Positions 17,523-64,000 are shown, counted from the stretch's first letter. The stretch: 64,000 nucleotides of DNA from a virus (IMGVR_UViG_3300027881_000008:1-64000), one strand, 5' to 3'. The notes: generated by a model not told the origin, from the sequence alone. Made by a program: numbers and translations.

Positions 17523-18304
17523 GCCATATCCTCGACCGCCGTGCGCCGGAGCAGTTCATCCGTGAGCTGTCCCAAGAGGCGCGCCTCGTCCGTCAGGGCG
17601 CGGCAGGACAGGAGGCCGGCCCCCCAGGGCTCGGTCCCGAGCCTGCGGTGGTCCATCAGCCGGGGGGCGAGCTCCTCAACAAAATCCAAGACCCGGCGTT
17701 CGATACGGTCGAGCATCTTTTTCGGGCGCTCCCCGAGGACAGTTGGTTCTCCCCTACCACCTCGACCAAGCGCCCCATCAAGTTCGAGTTCGGCGTCTTC
17801 ACCGTTCCCCAGAGCCAGTATTTTCTGGTGACCGACTACGAGTTCGTGGCGCTTCGGCAGAGCGGCATCGACCCCTTCGACTTCATGCAGGCGGCGCCGT
17901 ACCGCTTCAGCGGCTTCATGGGGTTCGACATCACGCTCGATGGCCGGCGCGTGAGTAACCTCATGTACCAGCTCGACCCCGCCCCAGTGCAGTTCTTCCG
18001 TCAGGCGTTCGCGTCGCCCTTCGATCCTCGCGCGCCCGCCGCGAGCTTCAACCAAGCTGCGGCCAACAGCTTCGGCGCCGTGGCCGGCGAGGGCACGTCG
18101 CTCTTGCCCGTCCGCCCCAACGTACAGGGAAGCCGGAACATGCCCTTCACCATGATCGCCGAGCCTGGCACCAAGGTTGCGCTCTCGTGCGTCATCTTCC
18201 GCCGCGTGACTGCCGCTCTCGCGGGCCTCCAGGCGAGCGTGTCTGGCTACTCGATCCACGCCAACACTATGAGCGCACTGCTCAACCGAATGAGGCCCAG
18301 ATGA
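17519..18304 (+). CDS. Virion structural protein
   Basis: A 261-residue protein with a charged helical start (residues 1-50) and a beta-rich body. It includes FEFGVFTVPQSQYFLVTDYEF near residue 85 and a hydrophobic Val/Ile-rich end (TKVALSCVIFRRV). There is no transmembrane segment or signal peptide. The ATG overlaps the stop of the previous gene (ATGA) and its own stop overlaps the next start, so the three are coupled. It is possibly a partner capsid or vertex protein; the family is not recognised. Confidence 0.55.
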   Translation: MSHILDRRAPEQFIRELSQEARLVRQGAAGQEAGPPGLGPEPAVVHQPGGELLNKIQDPAFDTVEHLFRALPEDSWFSPTTSTKRPIKFEFGVFTVPQSQYFLVTDYEFVALRQSGIDPFDFMQAAPYRFSGFMGFDITLDGRRVSNLMYQLDPAPVQFFRQAFASPFDPRAPAASFNQAAANSFGAVAGEGTSLLPVRPNVQGSRNMPFTMIAEPGTKVALSCVIFRRVTAALAGLQASVSGYSIHANTMSALLNRMRPR

Positions 18305-18528
18305 TGCAAGTAGGACCGCCGCCGCGAGGGTTTTATGGGATGGGAACCGACCCGCTTCTGCCGGGAGTCGTCCTCCCTGACTTGCCCGGTTACGTGACCG
18401 AGGAAAAATGTTCTGCGGCCCAGTTGTCGGCTGAAGAAAAAGCCAAGGGCAGCGTGCTTCCCTGGGCGATTGGCGCCGGAGTCGGCGCCCTGGTTCTAGG
18501 ACTCGCCATAGGAAGGATGAGCAAGTGA
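18301..18528 (+). CDS. Small tail-anchored membrane protein
   Basis: A 75-residue protein. The N-terminus carries GFYGMGTDPLLPG, a variant of the tag seen on later proteins. A PGYVTEE segment sits near residue 29, followed by one C-terminal helix (LPWAIGAGVGALVLGLAIG) and a four-residue basic end. PGYVT(E/K)E is shared with the next protein. There is no signal peptide, so insertion would be C-terminal. Both junctions overlap neighbours by 4 nt or 1 nt. Probably a small virion-membrane protein. Confidence 0.6.
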   Translation: MMQVGPPPRGFYGMGTDPLLPGVVLPDLPGYVTEEKCSAAQLSAEEKAKGSVLPWAIGAGVGALVLGLAIGRMSK

Positions 18529-18965
18529 TGTACGGACTTGGAGAAAATGGAGCGCCTCCGGGCGGACCACCACCGCCCCCCACCCCCGGTGCCCCACCGG
18601 CCATACCCACGCCGATCCCCGGGGCCACGGACCAGGCGAGCTGCGCGCAGCACGGCGGAACCTGGCAGGGACTCCCCCCGCCTGCGCCGCCGGGAATGGG
18701 CGTGTGTCTATCGGGCGCGTTGCCCCCCATTCCTGGGGCTCCCCCCGTACCAGGTGGCCTTCCGGCTCTTCCTCCGGGAGTCCAGAAGCCGGAGATCCCG
18801 GGATACGTGACGAAGGAGCACTTAGCCGCGTCGCTTCAGGGCGCCGCCACGCAGTGCAACACCGCGCGCGCCGAATCCAGGCGCATGTCCATCTACGTGG
18901 CCGTTGGTGTCGGCTTGGCGGGCGTGCTCATCGGTGCCGTCGTCGGAAAGAACATGAAGAAGTGA
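18528..18965 (+). CDS. Tail-anchored Pro-rich membrane protein
   Basis: A 145-residue protein. It begins MYGLGENGAPPGG, continues with a Pro/Gly-rich stalk containing two Cys (about residues 10-85), shares PGYVTKE with the previous gene product, and ends with one hydrophobic helix (YVAVGVGLAGVLIGAVVG) and KNMKK. The start ATG overlaps the upstream stop (TGATG), with GGAAGG in range as ribosome site; a GTG three bases earlier is possible. Layout is tag, stalk, anchor, as in the later genes of the block. Confidence 0.6.
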   Translation: MYGLGENGAPPGGPPPPPTPGAPPAIPTPIPGATDQASCAQHGGTWQGLPPPAPPGMGVCLSGALPPIPGAPPVPGGLPALPPGVQKPEIPGYVTKEHLAASLQGAATQCNTARAESRRMSIYVAVGVGLAGVLIGAVVGKNMKK

Positions 18966-18969
18966 GATT

Positions 18970-19077
18970 GACGAGCCGCAAGAGCCGGGCCCTCGGTTTG
19001 GTGTTCCGGGGGCTGTCCGCAAAAGTGATGGCCTTCCTCAGCCGCTCCGGCCGGGAGCTCGACTCTTGCGGCTCGTC
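18970..19077. repeat. 15-bp perfect inverted repeat in intergenic gap
   Basis: GACGAGCCGCAAGAG at 18970-18984 is exactly complemented by CTCTTGCGGCTCGTC at 19063-19077. The arms nearly fill the 133-nt gap before the gene at 19099. The 78-nt interior has further GC-rich pairing potential. No U tract follows, so a structured leader, RNA processing site or recombination site fits better than a terminator. Confidence 0.6.
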
Positions 19078-19098
19078 GAAACACGCGGGGGAGGCGTA

Positions 19099-20037
19099 AT
19101 GTACCGCGGCATAGGCCGGCCGCTGGGCGCGACCACGCGGGGCCTCGGTGCCCGAGAGTGGGACGACGTCCAGGAGTGGTGTCCTGGGGTGTTTGTGGAG
19201 TCCGAGAAGGACTTCTGTCCTTTTTCGCGCGCGCTTTGGTCGACCGACGAGGTCTACGTCATGCGCTTCCATGTTACTGGACTCGACGGAGGCATTCAGA
19301 CGGCCTCCCAGGGGCTCAGGTGGGCGAACGCTTACGGCAACACGCTCATGACGGCGTGCCTGCCCTTCGGCTGTCCTTCCATCGAACGCCAAGACGTCAA
19401 GGGGATCGTGTTTGACAGTCAGGGCGGACCGGGCGTCTACGGCGTCGACCTCGTCGTGACCACGCAGGAGGGCGGTGCGCCCGTCTTTGGTCAGCGGGGG
19501 GTGGAAGCTACCGTTAAGATGCTCAACAAGGACCCGGACCTGCTCAGCGTCTGGCCGAATTTGCACGTAAACGACTTCCAGCCTCTTCTGATGCTCGACG
19601 AGACGGCAGCGCAGAAGGCTAGGATCACCGACTGGCGCGCAGCGCCGACGGTTTGGAGCTGGGAGCTTTGGGAACAGAACGAGGACGCGCCCGAGAGGAC
19701 CAGGGGAAAGACCGACGCCTACGGAAAAGGCGAAGGGGTCTGGCTCGGTGGGACGGCGGCGCACCCCCAGGCGCGGCTCAAGCCCAAGGCGCCCACCCCC
19801 GTCGGTCCTCCCACGCCCAAACCTCCCACGCCCAAACCTCCCACGCCCAAGCCTCCCACGCCCAAGCCTCCCGAGCCGGGACCGTTGCCTTCCAAGGCCG
19901 GCCTCAACGCGGGCACCGTTGCGGGGGTCGCCCTGGTCGCCGGGGTTGGATGGTTCGCTTTCGGCACACGTATTCGAGACCACCTGAGTGGCAAGAAGCA
20001 AAAGGAAAAACAGCATGTCCTACAAAAGCCTTGGTAA
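19099..20037 (+). CDS. Tagged, tail-anchored virion-type protein
   Basis: A 312-residue protein. It starts MYRGIGRPLG, the clearest form of the shared N-terminal tag. Residues 20-225 form a mixed domain with several Cys and Trp. A linker of five KPPTP-type repeats follows (DNA 19800-19870). One hydrophobic helix (VAGVALVAGVGWFAFG) lies near residue 280, and a basic tail ends the protein. GGGGGAGG is the ribosome site just before the ATG. No signal peptide. The family is not recognised; the layout suggests an exposed domain on a Pro stalk held by a C-terminal anchor. Confidence 0.65.
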   Translation: MYRGIGRPLGATTRGLGAREWDDVQEWCPGVFVESEKDFCPFSRALWSTDEVYVMRFHVTGLDGGIQTASQGLRWANAYGNTLMTACLPFGCPSIERQDVKGIVFDSQGGPGVYGVDLVVTTQEGGAPVFGQRGVEATVKMLNKDPDLLSVWPNLHVNDFQPLLMLDETAAQKARITDWRAAPTVWSWELWEQNEDAPERTRGKTDAYGKGEGVWLGGTAAHPQARLKPKAPTPVGPPTPKPPTPKPPTPKPPTPKPPEPGPLPSKAGLNAGTVAGVALVAGVGWFAFGTRIRDHLSGKKQKEKQHVLQKPW

Positions 20038-20689
20038 CCCGCTCGGGTCTTACTACGAGTTCAGCCCCCACCAGGTTTTCGACGGGGTGGGCGAGTATTA
20101 CGAAACAGCGCCCATGAGCGGGCTGGGGTCTTACTACGAGTTCAGCCCCCACCAGGTCTTCGGCGCCTTCGGGGCCGAGACGACCTTCAACGCCCAACAG
20201 GTCTGGGCCGACGCCCAGCTCGGTGGGAGCTGCTTCACGCCGGGAAACCCGAACTGGAAGAACGAGGCGATGCTGGGCACCTGCAACGCCGCTGGCGGGC
20301 GCGCCACCCGCGAAATCCAAGCGGCACTGAACACTCTCGGCTACTCCACTCCGCTCGACGGAAGGTTCCAGGGGGCCACGAGGGCGAACTGGAACAAGTT
20401 TATGGCCCAGCACGGGCTCTCGAGCGCAATCGGAGAGGTGCAGGAGCAGGGTCTCTTGCTTATCGAAGACCAGCTGCGCCAGGGCATCACCCCGGGGCCG
20501 GACGAGCCTAGGAAGACCAAGAAGGTCAACGGCAAGTACATCCCCGTCAACGGCGACTCCAAGGCCGGACTGGGGGCGGTGGCGGCCGTCGCGCTCGTGG
20601 GGCTCGCTGCCTTTGGCGGGTACATGGTCTACAAGAAAAAGAAAGGCGGCGCTAAGTCGCGCCGCCCGTTGGTGAGACTGAAGCCGTGA
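20015..20689 (+). CDS. Tail-anchored protein with peptidoglycan-binding-like domain and SPHQVF motif
   Basis: A 224-residue protein starting MSYKSLGNPLG. Two copies of SYYEFSPHQVF follow (residues 12 and 39), the first continued by DGVGEYYETAP as in the 803-residue protein. Residues 95-135 fit the PG_binding_1 pattern: IQAALNTLGY, then PLDGRFQGATR, then a helix. One C-terminal helix (GAVAAVALVGLAAFGGYMV) and a Lys/Arg-rich tail close it. AAAAGGAAAA precedes the ATG, which lies 23 nt inside the previous gene. It could bind host wall during entry; that is inference. Confidence 0.65.
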   Translation: MSYKSLGNPLGSYYEFSPHQVFDGVGEYYETAPMSGLGSYYEFSPHQVFGAFGAETTFNAQQVWADAQLGGSCFTPGNPNWKNEAMLGTCNAAGGRATREIQAALNTLGYSTPLDGRFQGATRANWNKFMAQHGLSSAIGEVQEQGLLLIEDQLRQGITPGPDEPRKTKKVNGKYIPVNGDSKAGLGAVAAVALVGLAAFGGYMVYKKKKGGAKSRRPLVRLKP

Positions 20690-20695
20690 GAAAGA

Positions 20696-20923
20696 ATGGA
20701 AACGAAACACATCATCCAGGTTTTGGAAGCAGCCAACCAGGGCTCGCCTCAGATCCTGCATGCTGCGGGCCGCGTGTTCGGATTGGGCGAGGCGGAGCGG
20801 GATGCGCTGGCGAAGCGGACGTTTCCGGCTTGGGCGGCGGGACTGCTTGGGATCTCGGTGGGGATCCTAGCGGGCGCAGCCATACAGCGGCGTTGGCCGG
20901 GGAAGATCCTTCCGGGGGCCTGA
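20696..20923 (+). CDS. Small membrane protein
   Basis: A 75-residue protein with an amphipathic N-terminal half (residues 1-40) and one hydrophobic helix (AAGLLGISVGILAGAAI, about 47-64), then a short basic tail. It lacks the N-terminal tag. It lies between two tag-bearing genes with 6 nt upstream and 1 nt downstream, so it belongs to the same operon. Probably a virion-membrane protein. Confidence 0.6.
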   Translation: METKHIIQVLEAANQGSPQILHAAGRVFGLGEAERDALAKRTFPAWAAGLLGISVGILAGAAIQRRWPGKILPGA

Positions 20924-20924
20924 T

Positions 20925-21467
20925 ATGAGCTACGTAGGACTAGGAAACGCTTTCGGGTCGACTGTCTCGTTACCAGCAGGGTTCGACGCGGGTAAACTCC
21001 CCTATTGCGGCACTGTGCGGGCCCTTCAAACCACGTTGGGCGGCATCGGCTACGACGTCGGCAAGGTAGACGGTAAGTGGGGGACGAATACGGCCAAGGG
21101 GGCCACCGCCTTCGCGCAGGCTAAGGGTCTGAACGTGAGCGGAGGCATTACCAAGAACTTCTGTCAGGCGCTGCAGAGCGAGTGGGTGGCCTCGATGGCT
21201 CCCCCGACTCCCTCTGTCCCAGCGCCCCCGGCTCCAGTGCCGGGAGCAAAGGAACCGCCACCGGCGGGAAGGCACCCGGCTCCCCCCGCCGAAAAGGGGG
21301 CGGGGCCCGATCGACTTGACGCCTCGGGTGGCGCGCCCCCACCCCCCGTCAAGGCTGGGCTCTCGACGGGCGCTAAGGTCGCAATTGGCGGCGCGGCGCT
21401 CGTGGTCGTCTTCGGTGTCGTGGCAATCGCCAGCGGCTACGCCGACAAAGGGAGAACATCGCGGTGA
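20925..21467 (+). CDS. Tagged, tail-anchored protein with peptidoglycan-binding-like domain
   Basis: A 180-residue protein starting MSYVGLGNAFG. Residues 30-85 follow the PG_binding_1 repeat: VRALQTTLGGIGY, then VGKVDGKWGTNT, then a helix. A Pro-rich stalk (about 90-145) leads to one hydrophobic helix (VAIGGAALVVVFGVVAIASG) and a basic end. There is no signal peptide. Same architecture as the preceding PG-binding-like protein but without the SPHQVF motif. Confidence 0.65.
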   Translation: MSYVGLGNAFGSTVSLPAGFDAGKLPYCGTVRALQTTLGGIGYDVGKVDGKWGTNTAKGATAFAQAKGLNVSGGITKNFCQALQSEWVASMAPPTPSVPAPPAPVPGAKEPPPAGRHPAPPAEKGAGPDRLDASGGAPPPPVKAGLSTGAKVAIGGAALVVVFGVVAIASGYADKGRTSR

Positions 21468-22687
21468 ATTACACAGGAATAGGAATGCCCTTCGGCGCCT
21501 TCGGGCGCGTGCCCGAGGACCAGCCGTGTTGCGAACCGACCTGCGAGCAGCCGTGTCCTTTGGGCACCGGAACGCATTGCGGCAGCGTCTACGCCATGCA
21601 GACCATGCTTGGGGTCTTGGGCTTTCTCCATCCCCTCGACGAGACGAGCATCGACGGAAGGAACGGCCCGAAGACACGCGGGGCCGTGGCGGCCTACGCG
21701 CTGGCAAAAGGGATCCCCGTGGACCCGAACAAGCCGTCGGGCCTCTTCTGCGTGGCCCTGATCGCTGACTACAACGCCTATGTGGATCCTGGTCCCGGTG
21801 CGACCGACCCCAACGAATGCGCCCCGGGCCAGTGGGGCGCCCCGCCCTTCTGCTTCGGCCAACCGTCGTCGGTGCCGCCCCCCCCCAAGGAGGCTGGCGC
21901 CTGCCCCCCTCCCACCGTGGGGCTCCCGCCTTACTGCGTGACGTTGCCCGGCGGAGGGGCTCCCCCCGTGCCACCGGGCGCCTCGGCGTGTCCACCCGGC
22001 ACCCTCGGACTACCCCCGCATTGTTTCGGCGTGCCTGGTGGCGTCCCTCCCACCACGCCTCCCGGGACTCCGCCAAAGCCCCCCCCAGGGCCAAAGCCCC
22101 CAGGGCCAAAGCCCCCGGGACCCAAGCCCCCGGGACCCAAGCCCCCGGGACCCAAGCCTCCCGCAGGACCCCCGCCCCCGACCCCAGGTCCCGTGCCCGC
22201 AAACGGGTTCTGGGAAAGCCGGAGCGACGGAGAGAAGGCGCTACTGCTAGGCGGCGGCGCTGCTGTCGGCTTGCTCTTGGTGGCTGCTCTGATGTCAGGC
22301 AGGCGCCGAAAGCCCAGCTCTAAGAAGCTCCCCGCGCTGACCTCCAACCCTAGAGGGCGCCGAAAGACGAAGCGCCGCCGGGCAAAGCTGCGCAAGGCTT
22401 CCAAGCGCCGCACCAAACGCCGCACCAAGCGCGTCCGCCGCAAGAAGAAGTGGGCCCAGGCAGTCGACCGGAGCATGCAAGAGCGCGGCACCGTCGGGTC
22501 TTTCACCAAACAGGCCCGCAACGCCGGCTACTCGGACACCATGGAGTTCGCGCGCAAGGTGATGGCCGGCTGGAGAGACGGAAGCAAGACCGTCTACAAC
22601 AAACGGACGCGCCGCAACATGCGGATCACCAAGCGCACCATGTACCGCGCCAACTTCGCTATCAACATCCAGAAGCGTCGGCGTTAG
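21464..22687 (+). CDS. Membrane-spanning protein: PG-binding-like domain, Pro stalk, anchor, basic interior domain
   Basis: A 407-residue protein. It starts MNYTGIGMPFG, followed by a Cys-rich PG_binding_1-like unit (residues 30-105: VYAMQTMLGVLGF, SIDGRNGPKTR). A long Pro-rich stalk contains Cys-bearing repeats (GLPPYC, GLPPHC) and five GPKPP units (DNA 22078-22165). One helix (ALLLGGGAAVGLLLVAALM, about 258-278) precedes 125 residues that are extremely Arg/Lys-rich and end in a small helical domain. The layout suggests a protein crossing a membrane with wall-binding on one face and DNA-binding on the other. GTG start overlaps the upstream stop (GTGA). Confidence 0.65.
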   Translation: MNYTGIGMPFGAFGRVPEDQPCCEPTCEQPCPLGTGTHCGSVYAMQTMLGVLGFLHPLDETSIDGRNGPKTRGAVAAYALAKGIPVDPNKPSGLFCVALIADYNAYVDPGPGATDPNECAPGQWGAPPFCFGQPSSVPPPPKEAGACPPPTVGLPPYCVTLPGGGAPPVPPGASACPPGTLGLPPHCFGVPGGVPPTTPPGTPPKPPPGPKPPGPKPPGPKPPGPKPPGPKPPAGPPPPTPGPVPANGFWESRSDGEKALLLGGGAAVGLLLVAALMSGRRRKPSSKKLPALTSNPRGRRKTKRRRAKLRKASKRRTKRRTKRVRRKKKWAQAVDRSMQERGTVGSFTKQARNAGYSDTMEFARKVMAGWRDGSKTVYNKRTRRNMRITKRTMYRANFAINIQKRRR

Positions 22688-22696
22688 GAGACCCTC

Positions 22697-23386
22697 ATGA
22701 CCGTACCCGCATACACCAACATCGCCCACTTTCGAGCCCCTTACAAAAACTCCTACGTCTACACAGGGGTGGGTCAGGACGACGTGCCCGTGGGACCCCC
22801 AGGCGGTCCGCCCCCGCCAGACGATACGGACCCAGCTCAAAAGGAACTGATGAAGCACATCACCGTCGGTAAGAGCGGCGAGCTGAGCTGGAACACCGAC
22901 ACGGCCAACCTCATCCGAAAGGCCCTGAAGGGGTACGGAACGGTCCACCTGTCCAACGAGGCGGTCGAGGTTATCCCGTTCACCCCGGTAGAGATCAACG
23001 CTGCGATGACGGACCCGAAACTGGCCGCCCTCCTCAAGGCCCGTAGCGGGGCCACCTGGGTGGACCAACGCGCCGCAGAAGGGAAGGTGGTCTTCGCCTC
23101 CGTGGGGATGTTCGTACCAGGCGCAGGGGCCAAGAACCTAGCGGCCCTGGACCCCGGTGACCGCGAGCGAGTGGACGCCACGTCGCGGGTGATGCCCATC
23201 GTCGCCCTGCCTGGCGCCGTCACTCCCCCCACTCCTACGCCAGGAAAGGTTACCCCCACCTCGAAGGCTTCGATCTTCGACAGTCCGACGGCGTTGGCCG
23301 TGGGAGTCGTGGTGGTGGGCACCGTTTCTTTCGTCGTTTACAAGGGCTTCCAGAGTAAGAAGAAGCTCCCCCCCCTCAAGGTTTGA
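22697..23386 (+). CDS. Tail-anchored virion-type protein
   Basis: A 229-residue protein. A tag-like YTGVGQDDVPVGPPGG lies at residues 22-37, not at the extreme N-terminus. A folded domain (50-165) is followed by a Pro/Thr linker, one hydrophobic helix (ALAVGVVVVGTVSFVVYKG) and a Lys-rich tail KKKLPPLKV. No signal peptide or enzyme motif. It is 9 nt after the previous gene and 3 nt before the next. Function unknown beyond probable membrane anchoring. Confidence 0.6.
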   Translation: MTVPAYTNIAHFRAPYKNSYVYTGVGQDDVPVGPPGGPPPPDDTDPAQKELMKHITVGKSGELSWNTDTANLIRKALKGYGTVHLSNEAVEVIPFTPVEINAAMTDPKLAALLKARSGATWVDQRAAEGKVVFASVGMFVPGAGAKNLAALDPGDRERVDATSRVMPIVALPGAVTPPTPTPGKVTPTSKASIFDSPTALAVGVVVVGTVSFVVYKGFQSKKKLPPLKV

Positions 23387-23389
23387 GCC

Positions 23390-24604
23390 ATGGCGTCCCT
23401 ATCCTCCACATCTCGCGCGTCGGACTCCGCTAAGGACGCGGCTGCCCTAGTCGGCCAACTCGTTCAGGTGCGGGCGGAGGGGGCGGCTACGGGGAGCCAA
23501 GACGCTGCGGTCGACGCGGCCATCGGGACCGACTCGAGCCATTGGAGGAAGAATGTGCGCGCCACGTTGGGCCAAACCGTGGCCCAGTCGGGGCGCCAGC
23601 AAGCGGCCGTGACTGCCGGGTACGTGGCGGATACTCTCCGAGGGTCGACGAACATTCCTCAACCCACCGTGGTCGCTATTTTGCGCGCGGACCTAGAGCG
23701 AGCCGAGAGAGAGGTCACCGACGCGGCGGCCGGTGCTTCGCGCTACCAACTGCCGCGCGACTTTGCGAGGGTAAAAATGAAAAACGAAATGACCTCAGAA
23801 TCAATAGCTCCAAGCCAGACGGTCGCCACGGCGCGCCTCATCACCCGGCCGTCCACGGTCGCGCTCACCTATCCGGCCACCACCTCAGTACCTTATCCAG
23901 GCCCCACATCAGACCCCATCGTGGGCGCCAACGGGGGGCTAATCCCCAACGGCAATGGGGGGAGCGACGTCGCTGGGCCCGACCTCAATGGGTTCGAGAC
24001 CCTCTTCCCCGGGGGCTTCGCCGCTGGCGTCGTCGAGCCGGCGACGTGCAACGGATTATCCTACATGCGCATCGCTCCAGGTCACGCCGCGGCGGTCGCG
24101 CAGACGCTGAGCCAAGCGATGGCGACCCCCGACTTCTGCTCGGTCGTGCAGTGCCCCCCGGGCAAAGACGGCAAGATCAGCTCGGTGTTCTGTATGGCGG
24201 ACGCCGAAGCCATAGCGGCCAACGAGGCGCAGCCGGTCGGACCTCTGCTAGCGAAGCTCCGGGCCGAAGGTCGCGCCTGCGTGCTCATCGCAGCTGAGCC
24301 CTTTGGCACCTGCCTCGCCGGCGTTCCCCCTACGGGCCTCCCTGACATCGCGGGGAAAGGGTTCCACGCCGTGGTGCTGAGCGAGCCGACGGGGGGCTGG
24401 CAGCCGCCGTGCGGCGGTGCGCCGGTTCCCAAGCCTCCCGCTCCACCGACCCCCACCGCCACAGCGGGGATGAGCACGGGCACGAAGCTCCTCTTGGGGG
24501 GGATCGGCCTGGGCCTGGTGGGCACCGTGGTCTACCTAGCCACCCGCGACATGAAGAAGAAGTCGCCCTCCCTCACCTCCAACCGCCGCCGCCGACGTAG
24601 CTGA
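23390..24604 (+). CDS. Tail-anchored protein of structural block
   Basis: A 404-residue protein. An Ala-rich helical N-terminus (1-130) is followed by a Pro/Thr/Gly-rich middle and a Cys-containing domain (residues 210-345, six Cys). A KPPAPPTPT stalk, one helix (LLLGGIGLGLVGTVVYLA) and a tail SLTSNRRRRRS finish it. The tail resembles the start of the basic interior domain of the 407-residue protein. The N-terminus lacks the tag. Not recognised; the layout matches the other anchored proteins. Confidence 0.6.
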   Translation: MASLSSTSRASDSAKDAAALVGQLVQVRAEGAATGSQDAAVDAAIGTDSSHWRKNVRATLGQTVAQSGRQQAAVTAGYVADTLRGSTNIPQPTVVAILRADLERAEREVTDAAAGASRYQLPRDFARVKMKNEMTSESIAPSQTVATARLITRPSTVALTYPATTSVPYPGPTSDPIVGANGGLIPNGNGGSDVAGPDLNGFETLFPGGFAAGVVEPATCNGLSYMRIAPGHAAAVAQTLSQAMATPDFCSVVQCPPGKDGKISSVFCMADAEAIAANEAQPVGPLLAKLRAEGRACVLIAAEPFGTCLAGVPPTGLPDIAGKGFHAVVLSEPTGGWQPPCGGAPVPKPPAPPTPTATAGMSTGTKLLLGGIGLGLVGTVVYLATRDMKKKSPSLTSNRRRRRS

Positions 24605-24616
24605 TGAAGGAGTGAG

Positions 24617-25243
24617 GTGAATGTGCATGGGATTGCTGGCATCCAGGGGCTCGGCCAAACGGCGGACCCGAACGCGCGCTTGGGCGCTGCCATGCATTCC
24701 GTGGAGCTTCTCGGACACCAACGCTTTGCCATAAGGCCGAAAGACCGCGACGCGGTCGTCGAGTCCCTGCGGGGGTGGACCCTGGTTAAGACGCTCGACC
24801 ACGCGGGGATAGCGTTCGCGGCTGCCAAACGTGAGGCCCCAGGCGCGTCCCTCTACGAGTGGGCCAGCGGCCAGAACGATACCGGCCGGGGGATCCTTCT
24901 GCGGGGAAACCCCTTCGCCACGGCACCCAACTCGGAGCTGATGGCGTACGCCACCCGGTACTGGGACCTGGGCTTCGCGGGGCCCGCCGTACCCTACATC
25001 CTGCTAGACCCTCCCCGGGGGTGGCGCCATAGCAACCTGCCGGACGCCAACGACGACCCTCGGCCGCCCACGTCCCAGGCGGGTGTTGCCTCGGGGCCTA
25101 GGTTGGTCTTCGCGGTGCTCGCCTTCGCCACTGTTGGCTTTTTCGTCTGGGCCTTGGGAAGAACAAAGGGCGCCACCCGAAGCACCTCAGTCAGCACAGG
25201 CTCCCGCGGGGCGCCTCGTTTGAGCCTGACCTGGCCGGCTTGA
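24617..25243 (+). CDS. Tail-anchored protein, tag variant
   Basis: A 208-residue protein beginning MNVHGIAGIQGLGQ, a loose form of the shared tag. Residues 25-150 form a mixed domain with no motif I recognise. One hydrophobic helix (LVFAVLAFATVGFFVWALG, about 163-181) is followed by a Ser/Arg/Thr tail. AAGGAG lies 4 nt before the GTG at 24617; the GTG at 24623 is also well placed. Coding continues the structural operon. Confidence 0.6.
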   Translation: MNVHGIAGIQGLGQTADPNARLGAAMHSVELLGHQRFAIRPKDRDAVVESLRGWTLVKTLDHAGIAFAAAKREAPGASLYEWASGQNDTGRGILLRGNPFATAPNSELMAYATRYWDLGFAGPAVPYILLDPPRGWRHSNLPDANDDPRPPTSQAGVASGPRLVFAVLAFATVGFFVWALGRTKGATRSTSVSTGSRGAPRLSLTWPA

Positions 25244-25273
25244 GCATATCCAGGTAGAAAGAGAAGACTACAA

Positions 25274-25990: not shown

Positions 25991-25996
25991 CCACCC

Positions 25997-27003: not shown

Positions 27004-27527
27004 AGTACGAATTGTTTTACGCGACCGGCGGCCATGGCGGTCCCTACGAGGGAAAGGCCGCGGCCTTGGAGGCAGCACGCAGACTCGTCGGCGGTGCTAA
27101 CGGCAGCTACATCGACGTCGTCCCCTACTCCCAGCCCTGGGAAGCGACCCCGGTGCGTGACCTGCACCTCCTGCGGGGTGTCGAGCGCGTGTACGCTGCA
27201 CCTGACGGCTGGTATTCTGAGGAGTACGAGACTCTAGCCGACAAGATGTTCGCGGAGCGGAACCCAGGCGCGAGAGCGGCGGAGTCCATCTACGTCATGA
27301 AGGCCGGGGAGGGCAACTACTACGCTCGCCGCACCACCAAGCCTCCGAAGTACCTGCGCTGGGAGTTGCAGCTACCCGACCCGCGCTCGTGGGGAGGCGG
27401 GATGAAAAGGGCGCACTACCGCCCGGCCGGCGGAAAGCTCTACTCACGCTCCGGTCTCAGCGCGCGCTTCGAGACCCTCAAAGAGATTAAGAAAGCCTAC
27501 CCCGGCGACTGGCGGAAGGTCCAATGA
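27000..27527 (+). CDS. Hypothetical protein
   Basis: A 175-residue soluble protein, Tyr-rich and mildly basic, with a compact alpha/beta look at the N-terminus (MKYELFYATGGHGGPYEG) and a basic C-terminal third. The GTG start overlaps the preceding stop; the end overlaps the next ATG (ATGA). There is no membrane segment or catalytic signature. It is one of the few non-anchored proteins in the block and may be an assembly factor. Confidence 0.6.
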   Translation: MKYELFYATGGHGGPYEGKAAALEAARRLVGGANGSYIDVVPYSQPWEATPVRDLHLLRGVERVYAAPDGWYSEEYETLADKMFAERNPGARAAESIYVMKAGEGNYYARRTTKPPKYLRWELQLPDPRSWGGGMKRAHYRPAGGKLYSRSGLSARFETLKEIKKAYPGDWRKVQ

Positions 27528-27802
27528 CCTACTCCCACCAGCAGCAGCAGCAGCACCAGCCCTACGGCCAAATCCCTGGTCTCCCCGTCCCCGGCGCTCC
27601 GGTGGGGGACGAGGTCTTGAAGGACGTCTCGGTGCGAGCGTTCGAGCATATCTGGCCGCTAATGGAGACGCGCCTCGACGAGAAGCTCGCGCGGGAGCGG
27701 TACGTGACGTTTGCGATGAGCGGGCTCGCCATGGCGGGATATTTTGCACTGCTGTGGGCGGTGGGCGTCAAGCTCCCGTGGCAGCGGAAATGGCGACGAT
27801 AG
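27524..27802 (+). CDS. Small membrane protein
   Basis: A 92-residue protein with a Gln/His run near the start (residues 5-11), a Pro/Gly linker, a charged helix (38-62) and one hydrophobic helix (VTFAMSGLAMAGYFALLWAVGV) before a basic end. It lacks the tag. It is coupled upstream by ATGA and abuts the next gene. Probably a minor virion-membrane protein. Confidence 0.6.
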   Translation: MTYSHQQQQQHQPYGQIPGLPVPGAPVGDEVLKDVSVRAFEHIWPLMETRLDEKLARERYVTFAMSGLAMAGYFALLWAVGVKLPWQRKWRR

Positions 27803-28192
27803 ATGGCATCGTACCGACCCAACTACTGGAACAACTACCCCGAGCCTTTCTACGCGGACTGGCAGCAGGAACCGATCCCCGGGTGGGGCGCCCGCCCGGT
27901 CATGGCGGGCCCAGCTCGCGTGGGGGTGGGCGCCATGATCAGCTTGGCCAAAGAGCAGAAGCTTTCGTCGCACCTTACGTTGGCCAGGATAAAGCCCCAC
28001 ACGTTGGCCAGGATAAATCCCCACGCGATTGTGCGGCTGCCCGGATTCGTGGGAAAGCCGCCGGCCGACGAGGGAGGAGGCGGAACCACCCCTTCAGAGC
28101 CGTCGTCCGGTCTGCGCTGGTTTATCGCGGGTGCGCTCGTCTTGTCGGTCGGCGGCATCGGCTTCTACCGTGGATGGAAGGGAAAGCGATGA
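27803..28192 (+). CDS. Tail-anchored small protein with duplicated octapeptide
   Basis: A 129-residue protein with an aromatic N-terminus (YRPNYWNNYPEPFYADW), a middle containing TLARIKPH then TLARINPH, and one C-terminal helix (WFIAGALVLSVGGIGFY) with a basic end. The two octapeptides come from an exact-length 24-bp tandem duplication (27977-28000 and 28001-28024) differing at one base, so it is recent. It overlaps the next gene by ATGA. Confidence 0.6.
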   Translation: MASYRPNYWNNYPEPFYADWQQEPIPGWGARPVMAGPARVGVGAMISLAKEQKLSSHLTLARIKPHTLARINPHAIVRLPGFVGKPPADEGGGGTTPSEPSSGLRWFIAGALVLSVGGIGFYRGWKGKR

Positions 28193-29550
28193 GCTACCAG
28201 GGGATAGGCGCGCCGCCGGGGATGACACTGCTAGGCGGCGGCGCTGGCGCAGTAGGGCGCCGTGACCTCGGCGCAGTCGATGACCGGCCGGGGATGGCAC
28301 TGCTAGGCGGCGGCGCTGGCGCAGGCTGTTCGCTCGGGTACGAGCTGTCGGGGATGGACCCGCAGAGCGCTTCGTGCCCCGGGGGCGGTTGCGACTCGGA
28401 TTATTGCTGCTCTCCCCGAGACTGGCGCGACTCGGTTTATTGGAAGCTCAAGGGCGCGGTAAACTACGCGTACTTTCAAGAGGCATCTATCCGCAAATCT
28501 CTCTACCAGCTCCTCGACGTCCCTACCCCCACCGGGTTTCCGAGTCGTCTGGACGAGTACGCCTACGACGCCTGCGGGGACGAAGAGGGCCCAGCCTTTA
28601 CGCAGAGTCTCGAGGCGCTGCGGGCGCGCCTCAAGCGCGCCGGGTTTAACCTGTGGAATATCTTGCCCCCCGACCGCTGGTCCCGCGAAAAGAAAGGGGT
28701 GCGCTCGGAGTGCCAGAGCGACGGCTGGCTCAGCCAGATGCGTGCTCCCTATCCCTACAAGATCAGCGGCGGGGGCTTCATGGCGCGGTTGGCCTACTGG
28801 CGCGACGGCCCCATCGAGGGAGAGCGGGCGAAGTCCGTCTACAACGTTACGGGCGGCCATCCTGGCGCCTTCAAGGACTGGCTGGCCGACAAGGCGATTC
28901 CCCTGATCGCGACTTCGCCGACGAGCACTCGTATCGAGAACTCGTCCTTCAACCCGGATGGATACGACTCTGGCGGCGACCCTAGGTGGAAGGCCAAGGC
29001 GCCGTGGGCGCTGGTGGACCGTTGGATAGGCACCACCGCGCCGGCAGAGATAGCCCCGCTCATGCTCACCTGCGGTCCCAACTCCCGCCTGGGGGGCTGC
29101 TCCGGGTGCGAGGCCCCACCCGACCGTTGGGCGGCGCAGCACGGCGGCGACCCAGGCAACCGAGTCACGATGCGCGATATGGGGAAAGCCCCCTCGATGC
29201 GCTGGTGGGCTCGCTTCTTGGACGTGTTCGCCCCTTTGCCCGACGTGGGCTGGGAGCCTGCGACGAAGGCCGGTCGCGCTGCCCAACAAAGCCGCTTCGT
29301 TCTCGCTAAAACGCCGGGGCGGGTGGCGGCCCACAGCGCTTCTCTTCCTTCGCTGATGGCGGTTAGGAAGCCAGCCCCTAGGTTCGTGGCTTCGGACGAA
29401 GGGATCGAGCGGCGCGTCGGGGGCGGCACCCCGCCGGCACCGCCGGGCAAAAGCGCCACACAAGGAGCTGTCCCATGGGTCCTGGCGGGACTTGTTGGGG
29501 CGGGCTTGGTTGGCGGCGGCGTGTGGTATTGGAGGAGCAGGGATGTATAG
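28189..29550 (+). CDS. Tagged, tail-anchored Cys-rich protein, paralogue A
   Basis: A 453-residue protein starting MSYQGIGAPPG. Two GMxLLGGGAGA repeats and a Cys cluster (CSLGYE, CPGGGCDSDYCC) follow. The body holds a conserved SRLDEYAYDACGDEEGPAF segment near residue 120 and LTCGPNSR with CSGCEAPPDRW near 300. One helix (VLAGLVGAGLVGGGVWYW) ends the protein. The next gene encodes a clear paralogue with the same order. Many Cys suggest disulfides outside the cytoplasm. The two genes overlap by 8 nt. Probable surface or spike protein, inferred from architecture. Confidence 0.6.
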   Translation: MSYQGIGAPPGMTLLGGGAGAVGRRDLGAVDDRPGMALLGGGAGAGCSLGYELSGMDPQSASCPGGGCDSDYCCSPRDWRDSVYWKLKGAVNYAYFQEASIRKSLYQLLDVPTPTGFPSRLDEYAYDACGDEEGPAFTQSLEALRARLKRAGFNLWNILPPDRWSREKKGVRSECQSDGWLSQMRAPYPYKISGGGFMARLAYWRDGPIEGERAKSVYNVTGGHPGAFKDWLADKAIPLIATSPTSTRIENSSFNPDGYDSGGDPRWKAKAPWALVDRWIGTTAPAEIAPLMLTCGPNSRLGGCSGCEAPPDRWAAQHGGDPGNRVTMRDMGKAPSMRWWARFLDVFAPLPDVGWEPATKAGRAAQQSRFVLAKTPGRVAAHSASLPSLMAVRKPAPRFVASDEGIERRVGGGTPPAPPGKSATQGAVPWVLAGLVGAGLVGGGVWYWRSRDV

Positions 29551-31105
29551 AGCAGTGGGAAAGCCGCCAGGGGTCGGTTTGGGATCGTTTGGTCCCGGCA
29601 CCGCAGGCGCAGGCCCCGGCTGCAGCTTGGGCTACGAGAGGGGGGGGATGGAGCCCGAGAGCAAGGACTGCCCTACCGGGGGGTGCGACAGCGAGTTCGG
29701 CGACGCGAGGGACTGTTGCGGCGTCTCACATTGGCGAGATTCTGTCTACCACAGGATCAAGGGGGGGCAAGCCTATCAGTACTTCCAAGAGGCGGCCATT
29801 CGGAGGGCCCTTTACGACCTGCTCGACGTCCCTACCCCCACCGGGTTTCCGAGTCGTCTGGACGAGTACGCCTACGACGCTTGCGGGGACGAAGAGGGCC
29901 CAGCCTTTACGCAGAGTCTCGAGGCGCTGCGCGCGCGCCTCAAGCGCGCCGGGTTTAACCTGTTCTCGATCCTTCCCCATAGCCGATGGTTCGTGGACGC
30001 CACCGGGACCAAGAGTCCCAAAGCCATCGACGTCGTGCACTTGGCCCCGTGTAGCGACTCTCAAGAAGACGGCTGGTACAGCAAGCGTCGCGTGTACCCC
30101 TACCTGAACGACGACTTCGTTCGGGTCAAGGTGAAAGGAAACGACGGCAAGTACCGGTGGGTCGTGAAGCCTCGCGGCACGACGACGGAAAACAAGAAGT
30201 ATCCGTGGGACACGGGAGAAAGGGAAGGGGGGGAGCCCGTTTGCGCCCGGCAGGACGGGGGTTGGACCGCGCACCCCGCCATGTCCACCATACCCGGTGG
30301 GAGTAATCTGTTCGGCCCTGAAAACTCGGAACTCAAAAAGGGCTTCAAGAACCCCTGCATCGGGGGCGCGCCGACCGTCAACAAAGAGATGGCGATATTT
30401 AACGTCACGGGCGGCAAGCCGGCCAAGTTCTGGGACTGGTGGGAGGACTTCGGAAAACCCCTCATTCGTTTCTCCCCCATCAGCAGCAGGGAACACCACT
30501 ATGGGGGACACCGAGACGCCTCTGCGACGCCGCGCTGGAAAGCGTGGAACCCCGAGCAAACGGAGAAACGGTTCACGGGCACCGTAGGTCCGGCTGAGGT
30601 GGCCCACCTCATGCTCACCTGCGGGCCCAGTTCGCGCTATGGAGCCTGCTCCGGGTGCGAGGCGCCAGCCGACCGTTGGGCGGCGCAGCACGGCGGAGAC
30701 CCAGGCAACCGAGTCACGATGCGCGACATGGGGAAAGACATCTCGATGCGCTGGTGGTCGAGGTTCTTGGACGTTTTCGCCCCTATGCCTGACGTGGGCG
30801 GCGGCGCCCCGAAAATCGACACGAGCAAGCTGAAGGCCGGGCTGAAGTTGTTCACCGCGCCGAAGAAGGGAGCGACTGGGATTTCTATCCACGGGCAGAT
30901 CGCTCCAGGTGCATTAAAAGCTGCGAGCATGGCTGTTTCGAGGCGGCCTGCCCCGGTGTTAGTGGCCCACGACGAGGGCTCCGTAGACGCCCCTCCACTG
31001 CCCCCAGCGCCTGCTCCCAAAAGCAACGTCCCCTACATTCTGGGTGGCATCACGGCGGTCGGCCTGGTCAGCGTAGGGGTCTGGTATTGGAGGAAGGATG
31101 TATAA
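29543..31105 (+). CDS. Tagged, tail-anchored Cys-rich protein, paralogue B
   Basis: A 520-residue protein starting MYRAVGKPPG. It shares with paralogue A the early Cys cluster, the SRLDEYAYDACGDEEGPAF region, a YNVTGG/FNVTGG segment, the LTCGPxSRxGxCSGCEAP region and the ending GVWYWRxxDV. An extra 90-residue segment near 190-280 is absent from A. Two DNA blocks (29822-29963, 30650-30737) are nearly identical to A although flanking regions have diverged. One C-terminal helix. The start overlaps the end of A, and the same GGAGGA-ATGTATA junction recurs before the next gene. Confidence 0.6.
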   Translation: MYRAVGKPPGVGLGSFGPGTAGAGPGCSLGYERGGMEPESKDCPTGGCDSEFGDARDCCGVSHWRDSVYHRIKGGQAYQYFQEAAIRRALYDLLDVPTPTGFPSRLDEYAYDACGDEEGPAFTQSLEALRARLKRAGFNLFSILPHSRWFVDATGTKSPKAIDVVHLAPCSDSQEDGWYSKRRVYPYLNDDFVRVKVKGNDGKYRWVVKPRGTTTENKKYPWDTGEREGGEPVCARQDGGWTAHPAMSTIPGGSNLFGPENSELKKGFKNPCIGGAPTVNKEMAIFNVTGGKPAKFWDWWEDFGKPLIRFSPISSREHHYGGHRDASATPRWKAWNPEQTEKRFTGTVGPAEVAHLMLTCGPSSRYGACSGCEAPADRWAAQHGGDPGNRVTMRDMGKDISMRWWSRFLDVFAPMPDVGGGAPKIDTSKLKAGLKLFTAPKKGATGISIHGQIAPGALKAASMAVSRRPAPVLVAHDEGSVDAPPLPPAPAPKSNVPYILGGITAVGLVSVGVWYWRKDV

Positions 31106-32795
31106 AGGTATCTGGGTGCCGCCGGGGATGGGCGCGTACGACGACTCTCCCGACGAGGCGGACTGGGGACATCGCAAGGTGCCCTCGCCAGCCTACCCTT
31201 GGGACGGGTGGGACAAAACTGGCAAGCACCCTGACGCGGCGGACTTCGGCTACGACACCGCCTCGGCCTATAGCCTTCTTGACGACGGCTTCCTCAACGA
31301 ACAGACGAAGATCGCGCTACCCGGGATGCCAAACACCGGCGAGTTGATACAGCTGGTGGGACCACCTTCCCAGTCTGCGGTTCTCGGCGTCAGGTCGGCT
31401 CTCGAAGGGGCGACGGGGCTGCCCGTGGACAAGATCGCTTCTACCATGGGGGTCGACCTCGGCCTCATGGGGTCGATGGTGGGCAATCTGGTAAGAGGAG
31501 AGACCGAGGTCGCCCAACAACAGGCGCTCCAAATGGGAAAGGGGATCCTGAAGGCGGGGCTAGACCTCGCCTTTGGAAACATCCCAATCGTCGGGCAGAT
31601 CGTAGGGATCGCCGCCGACGTCGTGTTCGCTTTGCTGGGAAACGCGGCGAAGTTCCAAGCGGAAAAAATTCACAAGGCGACGCTCGATCAGGTGAGGAAA
31701 GAGCTGCAGAGCCGCTGCGACACGCTTTACTCGATAGGCCAAAATCCCGTGAAGACGGGGATCTCACTAGGGGACGGTTCCCTGATGGCCACGCCCTCCG
31801 ACTTGTTCCGCCCGGTGAGGGAAGCCTACGAATCTGGGAGCGGCGTATTGCCGATGACACCCGCGTCTGTCTACGTGCTCCTGTGCGGCGCGGAGAGCCA
31901 AGGGTTTGGCTTCTCCCGCCAGGAATGGGAACAAAAGAACGCGGGCTACGGCATCACAATACCGCCCCCGGTCCAGCGGCGGATGTGGAAGTGCATCAAA
32001 GCGATCTTCTCAGCGGTCCAACATCCCAGTGCGCAGTACGTTCCGGGCGACGGCGGCAAGTCGTCTTACATGGTCGTCCAAGAACTGGTGCGTACGCAGA
32101 GGGAGTCAAACAACTTCTCCGAAAGATCGATCTGGATGCTCGCCACCGAGCTCGCCGCCCGCGTCACCTATTGGCACCCTGACCCCAAGAAGGAAGAATG
32201 GGGCCCTTCAGGAGCCGGCGAGTACAACCGATACTACGGGGGAAACTGCTCCGGCACCGTGATGTGGCACGGCGCGGGCGGTCAGGGGGAGGAGTGCTTC
32301 AAGCGTGGCGGCTGCCAGACCCCCCAGGTGGTCTTCAAGAAGACGCGCGGGCGCTACATGGAGTGGGAGAAGGCCGAGAAAATCTCGGGCCCGACCGATT
32401 TCGCAGTAGCTCCTCTCGTGCGCGCCATAGCATCTCCTCAGACGGGCACCTTCTGGGTCGGTCAGGGCAAGTGGGCCGCGCTCATGCGCGAAGCTTACAG
32501 GGACCCCAAAAGCGGGCGCTTGGGCCTTTACCCGAACGAGAAGTTCGTGGCCGCACAGGGTCTCGACCAGCCCCGGGAGGCCAACAGCAAGCTGACTTTG
32601 AGCCTCGCGGGCACCCAACACCTCGTCATGAACCTGAAGAAGTCCATCGACGTTCAGGACGAGGGAGCCGAGGGGGAAGAGGAAGGCCCCAGCTTGGTTC
32701 CGTGGGTGTTGGGCACCGCCGTTCTTGGCACCGGAGCCTACTTCGGGGCCCGACAGCTGGGGCGGATGGGACGGAAAAAGGGCTGGGGGAGATAA
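31098..32795 (+). CDS. Tagged, tail-anchored large protein
   Basis: A 565-residue protein starting MYKGIWVPPGMG, a degenerate tag. Residues 130-185 are hydrophobic and Gly/Ala-rich (LDLAFGNIPIVGQIVGIAADVVFALLG), possibly a membrane-active or fusion-type segment. A charged helix follows, then a soluble domain with Cys pairs near 385-410. One C-terminal helix (LVPWVLGTAVLGTGAYFGA) and a basic end. It overlaps paralogue B by 8 nt. The central hydrophobic stretch sets it apart from the others and would suit membrane penetration, an inference. Confidence 0.55.
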   Translation: MYKGIWVPPGMGAYDDSPDEADWGHRKVPSPAYPWDGWDKTGKHPDAADFGYDTASAYSLLDDGFLNEQTKIALPGMPNTGELIQLVGPPSQSAVLGVRSALEGATGLPVDKIASTMGVDLGLMGSMVGNLVRGETEVAQQQALQMGKGILKAGLDLAFGNIPIVGQIVGIAADVVFALLGNAAKFQAEKIHKATLDQVRKELQSRCDTLYSIGQNPVKTGISLGDGSLMATPSDLFRPVREAYESGSGVLPMTPASVYVLLCGAESQGFGFSRQEWEQKNAGYGITIPPPVQRRMWKCIKAIFSAVQHPSAQYVPGDGGKSSYMVVQELVRTQRESNNFSERSIWMLATELAARVTYWHPDPKKEEWGPSGAGEYNRYYGGNCSGTVMWHGAGGQGEECFKRGGCQTPQVVFKKTRGRYMEWEKAEKISGPTDFAVAPLVRAIASPQTGTFWVGQGKWAALMREAYRDPKSGRLGLYPNEKFVAAQGLDQPREANSKLTLSLAGTQHLVMNLKKSIDVQDEGAEGEEEGPSLVPWVLGTAVLGTGAYFGARQLGRMGRKKGWGR

Positions 32796-32819
32796 CCAAC
32801 CACCTGTAAGGAGCGAACA

Positions 32820-33062
32820 ATGAGCGAAAAAATGAACTGGATACAAAAGCTGTCACATAGGAAAGACCCGGGGCGAGACGCCTTCGACGCGGCCCAGAAG
32901 GCGGCCCAGGAGGCGGCCGGTAAGGCGCCTGTCCAAGAGGCCGAGGCTGACCCTGTCGTGGTAGCCGAGCCCGATCCGGCTCCCGAGCCCGAACCCCCAG
33001 TTGAGGTGGCGCCCGAGCCCGAGCCCGAAAAGCCCAAGCGCGGCAGGTCGCGAAGGCGGTGA
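32820..33062 (+). CDS. Small Pro/Glu-rich protein with basic tail
   Basis: An 80-residue protein. The N-terminal 35 residues are helical and Ala-rich; the rest is a PEPxPEP-type acidic/Pro stretch ending KRGRSRRR. No membrane helix. AAGGAG lies 7 nt upstream of the ATG. The end overlaps the next start (GTGA). The charge switch (acidic linker, basic tip) could bridge a membrane or protein to DNA; unproven. Confidence 0.55.
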   Translation: MSEKMNWIQKLSHRKDPGRDAFDAAQKAAQEAAGKAPVQEAEADPVVVAEPDPAPEPEPPVEVAPEPEPEKPKRGRSRRR

Positions 33063-33598
33063 GTTACGTCGGAGTGGGCAAGCCCCCCGGCGGCGGTGGC
33101 CGTGGCGGCGGTGGCCGTGGCGGCGGTGGCCGTGGCGGTGGAGGGCACGCGGGTATGGGTCCCGGTCCTGGTCCTGGGCCGCATCCTGGGCCCCATCCTC
33201 ACCCTCACCCTCATCCCGGGCCCGGCCCCCATCCTCACCCGGGCCCTCACCACCGGCCTGGCTGGGGTAGGCGCCGTCGGCGGCTACGGTGGGGCGGCTA
33301 TGCGCCGCCTGGCTACTACGACACCACGCCGTGGTACTTCACAACCGGCGACCAGTGCAGCTACTACGGAGGCCGGAAACAATGCGTATTGGCGGGTCCC
33401 AACGACTACGGGGGCGACCCCTTCTGCGACCCTGGTTGGGTGAGGCGGTGCATCGTACCGCTCGGCAGTTGCGCCAGTCTGGGCGGGTACAAGCAGTGCA
33501 TCCCTCTCCTTGCCGGCGACCCGCCTGATCCTCTATGTCCAACCGGGAACTCACGCCAGTGCGTGCTCCCTCCGCTTCGAGGCGGCTACACATGGTAG
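33059..33598 (+). CDS. Tagged Gly- and His/Pro-rich Cys protein, possible spike
   Basis: A 179-residue protein starting MSYVGVGKPPG. Four GRGGGG units (DNA 33090-33146) are followed by a long His-Pro-Gly run (residues 33-68) that could bind metal, then RRRRR and a Cys-rich C-terminal domain with eight Cys in repeated xxxYKQC/GGRKQC-like units. Unlike the other tagged proteins it has no C-terminal membrane helix. Metal-stabilised His repeats and repeated Cys units are reminiscent of needle or spike tips; that is analogy, not homology. Confidence 0.55.
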   Translation: MSYVGVGKPPGGGGRGGGGRGGGGRGGGGHAGMGPGPGPGPHPGPHPHPHPHPGPGPHPHPGPHHRPGWGRRRRRLRWGGYAPPGYYDTTPWYFTTGDQCSYYGGRKQCVLAGPNDYGGDPFCDPGWVRRCIVPLGSCASLGGYKQCIPLLAGDPPDPLCPTGNSRQCVLPPLRGGYTW

Positions 33599-63932: not shown

Positions 63933-64000
63933 AGGTGGAGCCCTGGACGCGAGGCAATCGGACAGGCTTTTGAGCGCGCTCCGAGAGCACTCACGGGAGT
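63933..64000 (+). other. Unassigned window end
   Basis: Only 68 nt remain. An ATGA overlap at 63929 opens a 14-codon frame that stops at 63973. Another frame remains open to the edge. The start of a further gene is likely, but its frame cannot be decided. Confidence 0.3.

Follow-up and report, generated by a model that had tools for sequence, protein, structure and literature searches.

The window, that is, the whole stretch of 64,000 nucleotides that was analysed, extended from base 1 to base 64000 of a virus record 75,008 bases in length. A gene encoding a core membrane protein with a Lys/Arg-rich N-terminal part and two to three hydrophobic segments (12932..15343) was followed on the same plus strand by three genes for candidate capsid proteins. 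The first of these (15484..16278, 264 aa) showed weak matches to jelly-roll-type folds of membrane-containing icosahedral viruses, the second (16491..17522, 343 aa) was predicted to combine an N-terminal helix with a beta domain and the third (17519..18304) possessed an N-terminal arm with the sequence PGLGPEP. A tRNA-Gly was predicted at 14963-15039, antisense and within the core protein gene. On the minus strand, positions 2255..2881 encoded a transglutaminase-fold Cys-His-Asp protein, a homologue of the virion protein gp34 of phage SSIP-1.

Eight of the 20 genes located between 18301 and 33598 opened with a shared N-terminal tag in its long form, defined as M(x)[YF]-x-[GAS]-[ILV]-[GW]-x-[PA]-x-G with at most one residue between M and [YF]. 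All eight were found within 19099-33598 and on the plus strand. Helices were called from hydropathy windows alone and gene starts were assigned by simple rules. The first tagged protein (19099..20037, 312 aa, MYRGIGRPLG) has a (PTPKP)n stalk, a C-terminal helix and a basic tail, and its homologue in the relative L005 is likewise tagged (MYTSVGQ). The second (20015..20689, 224 aa, MSYKSLGNPLG) contains GSYYEFSPHQVFxxxG repeats, a C-terminal helix and a weak peptidoglycan-binding match, with a homologue in L005 tagged MSYGGVG. A PG_binding_1 domain (E 6.6e-6), a Pro stalk and a C-terminal helix were identified in the protein encoded at 20925..21467 (180 aa, MSYVGLGNAFG). The product of 21464..22687 (407 aa, MNYTGIGMPFG, GTG start), with a sub-threshold match to PG_binding_1 (E 4e-4), carries a Pro-Gly-Pro-Lys stalk and one helix at residues 253-269, followed by a 131-residue Lys/Arg-rich tail. 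The proteins encoded at 28189..29550 (453 aa, MSYQGIGAPPG) and 29543..31105 (520 aa, MYRAVGKPPG), each with a C-terminal helix, are paralogues, with DNA blocks 82-85% identical and bodies falling into one common cluster. The C-terminal segment of the protein from 31098..32795 (565 aa, MYKGIWVPPG) is weakly hydrophobic, and the N-terminus of its homologue in L031 reads MYGLGVPPS. The last one (33059..33598, 179 aa, MSYVGVGKPPG, GTG start) is rich in Gly, His and Pro and lacks a membrane helix.

Further genes of the plus strand carried less exact versions of the tag. A near form, MYGLGENGAPPG, opens the Pro-rich protein encoded at 18528..18965, which has a C-terminal helix and then KNMKK. Looser forms were noticed in the 75-aa protein from 18301..18528 (GFYGMGTDPLLPG, C-terminal helix), at about residue 22 of the product of 22697..23386 (YVYTGVG, continuing to YVYTGVGQ; C-terminal helix and basic tail) and in the product of 24617..25243 (GIAGIQGLG, helix close to the C-terminus). 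A DnaJ-domain gene is also placed inside the cluster (25997-26620).

The first-pass annotation had proposed that consecutive genes share this tag in front of unrelated bodies, mostly with a C-terminal membrane anchor and without a signal peptide. The sharing was borne out by shuffling residues 2-41 of the 20 cluster genes, in which 0.001 long-form tags were expected and eight were seen; for strict tags, also present in 8/20 genes, the expectation was 0.033, with a maximum of two in 20,000 runs. The diversity of the bodies held in a reduced form: as 28189 and 29543 are paralogues and 20925, 21464 and, weakly, 20015 have peptidoglycan-binding domains in common, the eight tags lead about five or six body families and not eight. 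Similarly, five of the eight strictly tagged proteins have one helix lying no more than about 30 residues from the C-terminal end, a pattern from which 21464, 31098 and 33059 deviate. No N-terminal hydrophobic signal was detected in the tagged proteins by hydropathy, as had been stated.

Such common N-termini might result from ordinary homology or from a nucleotide-level start signal, i.e., from duplicated 5' ends or a translation-initiation effect, and the pair of clear paralogues in the window as well as several relatives in which the body is shared together with the tag speak for this. However, the codons for the conserved residues of the tag vary among the genes, and over the 25 bases preceding the tagged genes the mean identity is only 0.29 (29%). 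The 5' ends are therefore not copies of one stretch of DNA, and a DNA cassette or start signal was ruled out. The tag is conserved at the protein level, not at the DNA level.

To find relatives, the 264-aa protein encoded at 15484 was used as bait, the tag playing no part in the search. It retrieved 24 contigs from IMG/VR, 9 to 182 kb in length, and two more from genome collections. Profile searches revealed that four genes travel together, encoding the core protein (12932) and the three capsid-like proteins (15484, 16491 and ~17519), the latter three giving 28, 27 and 23 matches, respectively. Clusters of proteins with C-terminal helices lie downstream of the core and capsid-like genes in the relatives, with N-termini including MSYHGVGAGPG, MYRAVGAGPG, MYTSLGQ, MYAGLGN and MSYAGLGA. 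Matches were not scattered over unrelated proteins, an outcome that would have refuted the first-pass annotation; they belonged to a coherent virus group with three capsid-like genes and the core protein, adjoined the capsid-like genes and carried C-terminal helices, the points which that annotation had proposed to check.

In a test confined to the relatives, with gene starts picked from their ribosome-binding sites and without regard to the motif, the strict tag was present in 16 of 920 genes, and 14 of these 16 encoded a C-terminal helix, compared with 218 of the 904 other genes (p=2e-7). None of the 119 reordered motifs gave a count above 10. Along anchored proteins, G-hydrophobic-G thinned out from a density of 0.013 per residue at the N-terminal end to one of 0.002 past residue 100, and the motif was present in the first 15 residues of 35/181 anchored proteins vs 17/571 others (p=7e-12). 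When genes were collapsed to body homology clusters, a Y with G-hydrophobic-G near the start was detected in 14 of 119 anchored body clusters and in 4 of 459 others (p=1.9e-7). With the window included, strict tag and C-terminal helix occurred together in 16 body clusters, counted with L005, L029 and L031 treated as one virus and with clustering done after removal of the tag and the helix. Whole-protein homology was ruled out by this clustering, the one true paralogue pair aside, since the association survives with one member per cluster. Homology and a start signal, taken together, are therefore a highly unlikely source of the tag.

By the motif-blind criterion, 105 of the 119 anchored families lacked the motif, so the tag is not obligatory. 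No strict tag was found in the distant clade L019-L023. When 2.9 million viral contigs were scanned for the exact long form, it turned up six times, always out of context: in no case did it open a plausible anchored gene, and no virus so matched had the capsid-like gene. Judged by these matches and by the tags of the relatives, the core Y-x-G-hydrophobic-G is shared across the group and the P-x-G extension is confined to the window virus. The earlier reading of the tag as an address was upheld as far as an N-terminal address linked to C-terminal anchors beside capsid-like genes is concerned, and it applies to one group of viruses.

Related motifs were also identified outside the tagged N-termini. 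In the window, QAAAG-hydrophobic-G and G-hydrophobic-G-E-Y motifs recur along the C-terminal tail of the core protein. In nearly all relatives, this tail contains repeated QAAAG-hydrophobic-G and G-hydrophobic-G-E-Y-F units, a large part of the distant clade having SG-hydrophobic-G singly, and the variants GLGEYFAQN, GMGEYMATS and QAAAGYG occur both in the core tail and in several tagged proteins. In most main-clade sequences, [GSA]-hydrophobic-G is also found towards the N-terminus of capsid-like protein 3, often with Pro a few residues on, PGLGPEP being the version in the window. Motifs in both the core tail and this arm point to one recognition element common to a capsid-like protein, the membrane core protein and many client proteins.

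The same abundance may be read differently, with the motifs as low-complexity Gly/aromatic stickers which self-associate and concentrate proteins at the assembly site with no defined groove. The many loose versions and the tandem repeats in the core tail and in several tagged proteins agree with this, as does the excess of G-hydrophobic-G in anchored proteins (7.3 per 1000 residues overall vs 2.9 expected). However, a single copy at a fixed position at the very N-terminus of many proteins fits a defined site better. The same applies to the preferred Y and G round the hydrophobic residue and to the dominant Gly in the third place, part of this preference being fixed by the search pattern. A sticker role is rather improbable.

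The kind of virus was considered next to these motifs. Large terminase, portal and HK97 capsid families (PF03237, PF04860 and PF05065) were matched in none of 20 records, while controls matched, and the lists of families shown for a relative of 143 kb contained none of them. A tailed-phage (Caudoviricetes) origin was rejected on the lack of these three families in the 20 records. Models of capsid-like proteins 1 and 2 were beta-rich and of low confidence (mean pLDDT 66 and 59, respectively). Their best PDB fold matches, to HHIV-2, SPV1, SH1 and SGIV, concern capsid or capsid-scaffold proteins of membrane-containing viruses, with E >=0.05 and none significant; those of protein 2 included vaccinia D13, also not significant. 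These beta-rich models and matches are what was obtained for the two or more vertical single jelly-roll capsid proteins that characterize Helvetiavirae. The top match in the viral library was I1ZBH9 (211 aa, prob 0.85, E 0.017), which from equal lengths alone would be SSIP-1 gp46, the neighbouring accession I1ZBI0 being gp47. All capsid fold matches had E above 0.01 and are suggestive only, and the capsid proteins assigned from these two low-confidence models are candidates. PHROGs and Pfam gave nothing convincing for the capsid-like genes, a tblastn search of annotated phages with the capsid-like protein gave no match and profile comparison of these proteins with SSIP-1 gave no signal. For the FtsK/HerA-type packaging ATPase of Helvetiavirae and Varidnaviria, the FtsK_SpoIIIE family (PF01580), which may miss viral packaging ATPases, was matched by no virus record, and no homologue of the SSIP-1 ATPase gp40 was found in the group. 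The similarity of the core protein to SSIP-1 gp44 was weak (E 5e-4, prob 31%). Amidase and peptidoglycan-binding domains were present, which suggests a bacterial host.

A firmer link to SSIP-1 was provided by one gene only. The transglutaminase-fold protein has homologues in 22 of 23 contigs, with DCD, H and D (Cys-His-Asp) invariant in 21 members, 15 of which match Transglut_core (PF01841; best 2.8e-8). Its similarity to SSIP-1 gp34, which is annotated as a structural protein and has a C-terminal helix at its end, was detected by phmmer (2e-11) and hhalign (98.1%, E 1.2e-13), so that this sequence relationship is a firm one; a search of the PDB with the profile found no relative by sequence. 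SSIP-1 is described as a phage that lacks a tail, contains a membrane and has capsid proteins of two types (PMC6356626). The group studied here resembles it in being probably tailless and membrane-containing, in a similar gene order, a hydrophobic protein followed by capsid-sized genes, and in several proteins with one C-terminal helix. The two differ in size (43.8 kb vs records up to 182 kb), in the capsid-like proteins, between which there is no significant sequence match, and in the tag: Y-x-G-x-G was absent from SSIP-1, where it was found in 0/8 proteins with a single C-terminal helix. The group is related to SSIP-1 and has conserved capsid-like genes, and the tag is restricted to viruses with these genes. 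The window most probably comes from a large virus which has no tail but an internal membrane, and to which SSIP-1 is a distant relative.

The conserved enzyme-like protein is the basis of the strongest rival explanation, in which the tag would be cleaved during maturation. The transglutaminase-fold protein would cut at G-hydrophobic-G or AAG, trimming the N-termini of tagged proteins and cutting the core tail, much as gp21 trims the targeting peptides of T4. Adenain cleaves at (M/I/L)xGx↓G. QAAAG-hydrophobic-G abounds in the core tails, and the putative enzyme is nearly universal in the group, with its C, H and D invariant, Transglut_core recognized in most members and a structural protein as its homologue in SSIP-1. 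LapG, a transglutaminase-like protease, has its cleavage site between two alanines that precede G (PMC3032545), and T4 propeptides both target and are cleaved (PMC9026906). On the other hand, SSIP-1 has the enzyme homologue without the tag, the distant clade retains the enzyme (G018 and G019) without strict tags, the loss of five residues serves no obvious purpose and the putative enzyme could cross-link instead of cutting. This reading is unlikely, albeit ahead of a sticker role and of recognition by a J-domain protein, both of which are less likely. Cleavage could also act together with docking, as in T4.

Recognition of the latter type would mean that the tag is read by a folding or insertion helper, e.g., the J-domain protein of the virus, which delivers tail-anchored proteins to the membrane. 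The DnaJ-domain gene within the cluster (E 1.8e-9) and the recurrence of J-domain-like genes in relatives are in accordance with it. However, the distant clade has a J-domain-like gene and no strict tags, and neither the repeats of the core tail nor the tag-like arm of the third capsid protein would need delivery to a membrane. Reading by a helper is the least probable of the explanations weighed here.

The reading preferred here, which stands at about even likelihood, is that the peptide serves as an N-terminal virion-incorporation, or docking, tag for tail-anchored membrane proteins, in a large virus which has no tail and encloses an internal membrane. In its favour are the excess of the tag over chance, its conservation as protein, its link to C-terminal anchors across many bodies, the concentration of G-hydrophobic-G near the N-terminus, the basic tails after the helix, the related motifs in the core tail and the third capsid protein, the lack of tailed-phage genes, the conserved capsid-like trio with its weak fold matches, the virion protein shared with SSIP-1 and the precedents of T4 and SGIV. 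We infer this membrane, as well as the virion location, topology and docking partner of the tagged proteins, as follows. A tagged protein would be made without a signal peptide and its single C-terminal helix would insert into the host membrane, the body staying cytoplasmic and the short basic tail crossing the membrane. The absence of a signal peptide, the one C-terminal helix and the short basic tail (mean charge in anchored proteins of +2.6 after the helix vs +0.15 before it) fit such tail-anchored insertion, as predicted from the sequences, and 21464 with its long basic tail beyond the helix fits this orientation too. Once the membrane is enclosed, the cytoplasmic face would become the capsid side and the tag, at the end farthest from the membrane, would be able to meet the shell. 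The free N-terminus (Y-x-G-hydrophobic-G, often then Pro) would bind a common class of capsid-side site, for which capsid proteins 1 to 3 or a minor protein beneath them are the likeliest carriers. Unrelated bodies, peptidoglycan-binding and others, would thereby be gathered in the gap between shell and membrane, with Pro stalks bridging the gap and basic tails meeting DNA. The core protein, whose tail presents many copies of related motifs and whose Lys/Arg-rich part could meet DNA, may be the main membrane-capsid organiser. With the three hydrophobic segments that it seems to have, an uncertain count, its basic N-terminal part and motif-rich tail would lie on opposite sides of the membrane.

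Several observations count against docking. A basic C-terminal tail across the membrane conflicts with the positive-inside rule and so speaks against the proposed topology. The protein from 33059, tagged yet helix-less, is another such observation, as are the lack of the motif in most anchored families and the low confidence of the models behind the capsid assignment. Both SSIP-1, with its eight single-helix proteins, and the distant clade do without the strict tag, which also counts against docking.

The first-pass annotation knew of no described system of this type. In the literature searched, mostly non-subscription papers, no account of tail-anchored virion proteins with an N-terminal tag in common was found, and the claim holds for the combination with C-terminal anchors; shared N-terminal targeting tags as such are known. 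Encapsulin cargo-loading peptides and microcompartment encapsulation peptides are short, terminal, carried by unrelated cargo and dock inside a protein shell, but they serve cellular compartments, are without a membrane anchor and have unrelated sequences. PM2 P3 and P8 are virion proteins with membrane helices at the internal membrane beneath the capsid. The same architecture is seen in Singapore grouper iridovirus (SGIV), where the anchor protein VP88, with a membrane helix, links the inner membrane to the capsid (PMC10090177). VP88, P3 and P8 differ from the case described here in being single proteins and not a shared tag on many bodies.

In the T4 capsid targeting sequence (CTS) of the internal head proteins IPI-IPIII, 10 N-terminal residues suffice (PMC9026906). 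The CTS is shared by internal proteins of different sequence, directs them to the forming head and is then removed (PMC9026906, PMC5694885), and it was proposed as an evolutionary route for loading various proteins (PMC9026906). Judged by its anatomy, the tag would work like the CTS, being a short N-terminal peptide on divergent bodies, without being a CTS itself. T4, however, is a tailed HK97-fold phage, whereas the window virus appears tailless; its cargo is not described as membrane-anchored, whereas most tagged proteins here are; and the CTS is removed by gp21 and is unrelated in sequence to the tag. The closest parallel in function is thus the T4 CTS and in architecture anchor proteins such as SGIV VP88.

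A wider reading is put forward tentatively, as a possibility short of even likelihood. The N-terminal Y-x-G-hydrophobic-G together with a C-terminal anchor would form a peptide code placing any protein between membrane and capsid in giant tailless membrane-containing bacterial viruses related to SSIP-1, with genomes of at least 182 kb at the top, an expandable virion proteome and motifs of the core and third capsid proteins written in the same code. Prokaryotic tailless viruses of comparable size were not found described in the literature searched, again mostly non-subscription papers. The membrane-containing phages known as isolates to date are small, with genomes of 10 to 44 kb in the ones examined, and a widespread tailless group with records up to 182 kb would go far towards bridging the difference in size from giant eukaryotic viruses. 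A transferable membrane-capsid loading tag would explain a quick gain of new virion functions, and the tag, the core protein and the capsid-like trio provide markers for viruses whose capsid-like genes are missed by current phage profiles.

The Lys/Arg-rich membrane protein encoded just upstream of the capsid-like genes (core protein, 12932-15343, plus strand) was conserved group-wide. Its sequence combines extended Lys/Arg/Ala repeats with hydrophobic segments, and its tail is built of tandem QAAAG-hydrophobic-G and G-hydrophobic-G-E-Y-F repeats; in the distant clade this tail part is encoded by a separate gene. In one relative (L003:8641-10768), capsid-like protein 1 was found in two tandem copies, with one longer by about 140 residues, which suggests that the longer copy is a decorated variant.

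A transglutaminase-fold protein with Cys, His and Asp (2255-2881, minus strand), homologous to the SSIP-1 structural protein gp34, was found in 22 of the 23 related contigs; the window copy was not detected by Pfam. This protein is a candidate maturation protease or cross-linker.

Within the structural cluster, the 25997-26620 gene (plus strand) encodes a protein that combines a J-domain (DnaJ) and a Cys-rich part, and J-domain-like genes were present again in many relatives, the distant clade included. A short distance upstream of the tagged gene at 19099 lies an inverted repeat of 27 bases (18970-19077), which is imperfect and encloses a loop of 54 bases.

Two contigs of the virus group, L026 (JAJRCO010000025.1) and L027 (CAUJHX010000182.1), were located inside MAGs that carry the labels Methanomicrobiales and Pseudomonadota. 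These contigs may have been binned wrongly, so the labels are at best tentative pointers to the host.

The gene at 59863-63459 (plus strand) encodes a very large protein of 1198 aa that contains a tyrosine-recombinase domain (E 6e-16); a homologue of 1249 aa was identified in the relative G013. Two adjoining plus-strand genes (35803-38918), the second encoding glycosyltransferase domains, were each matched by homologues in both of the relatives that were read completely, and possibly play a role in virion glycosylation.
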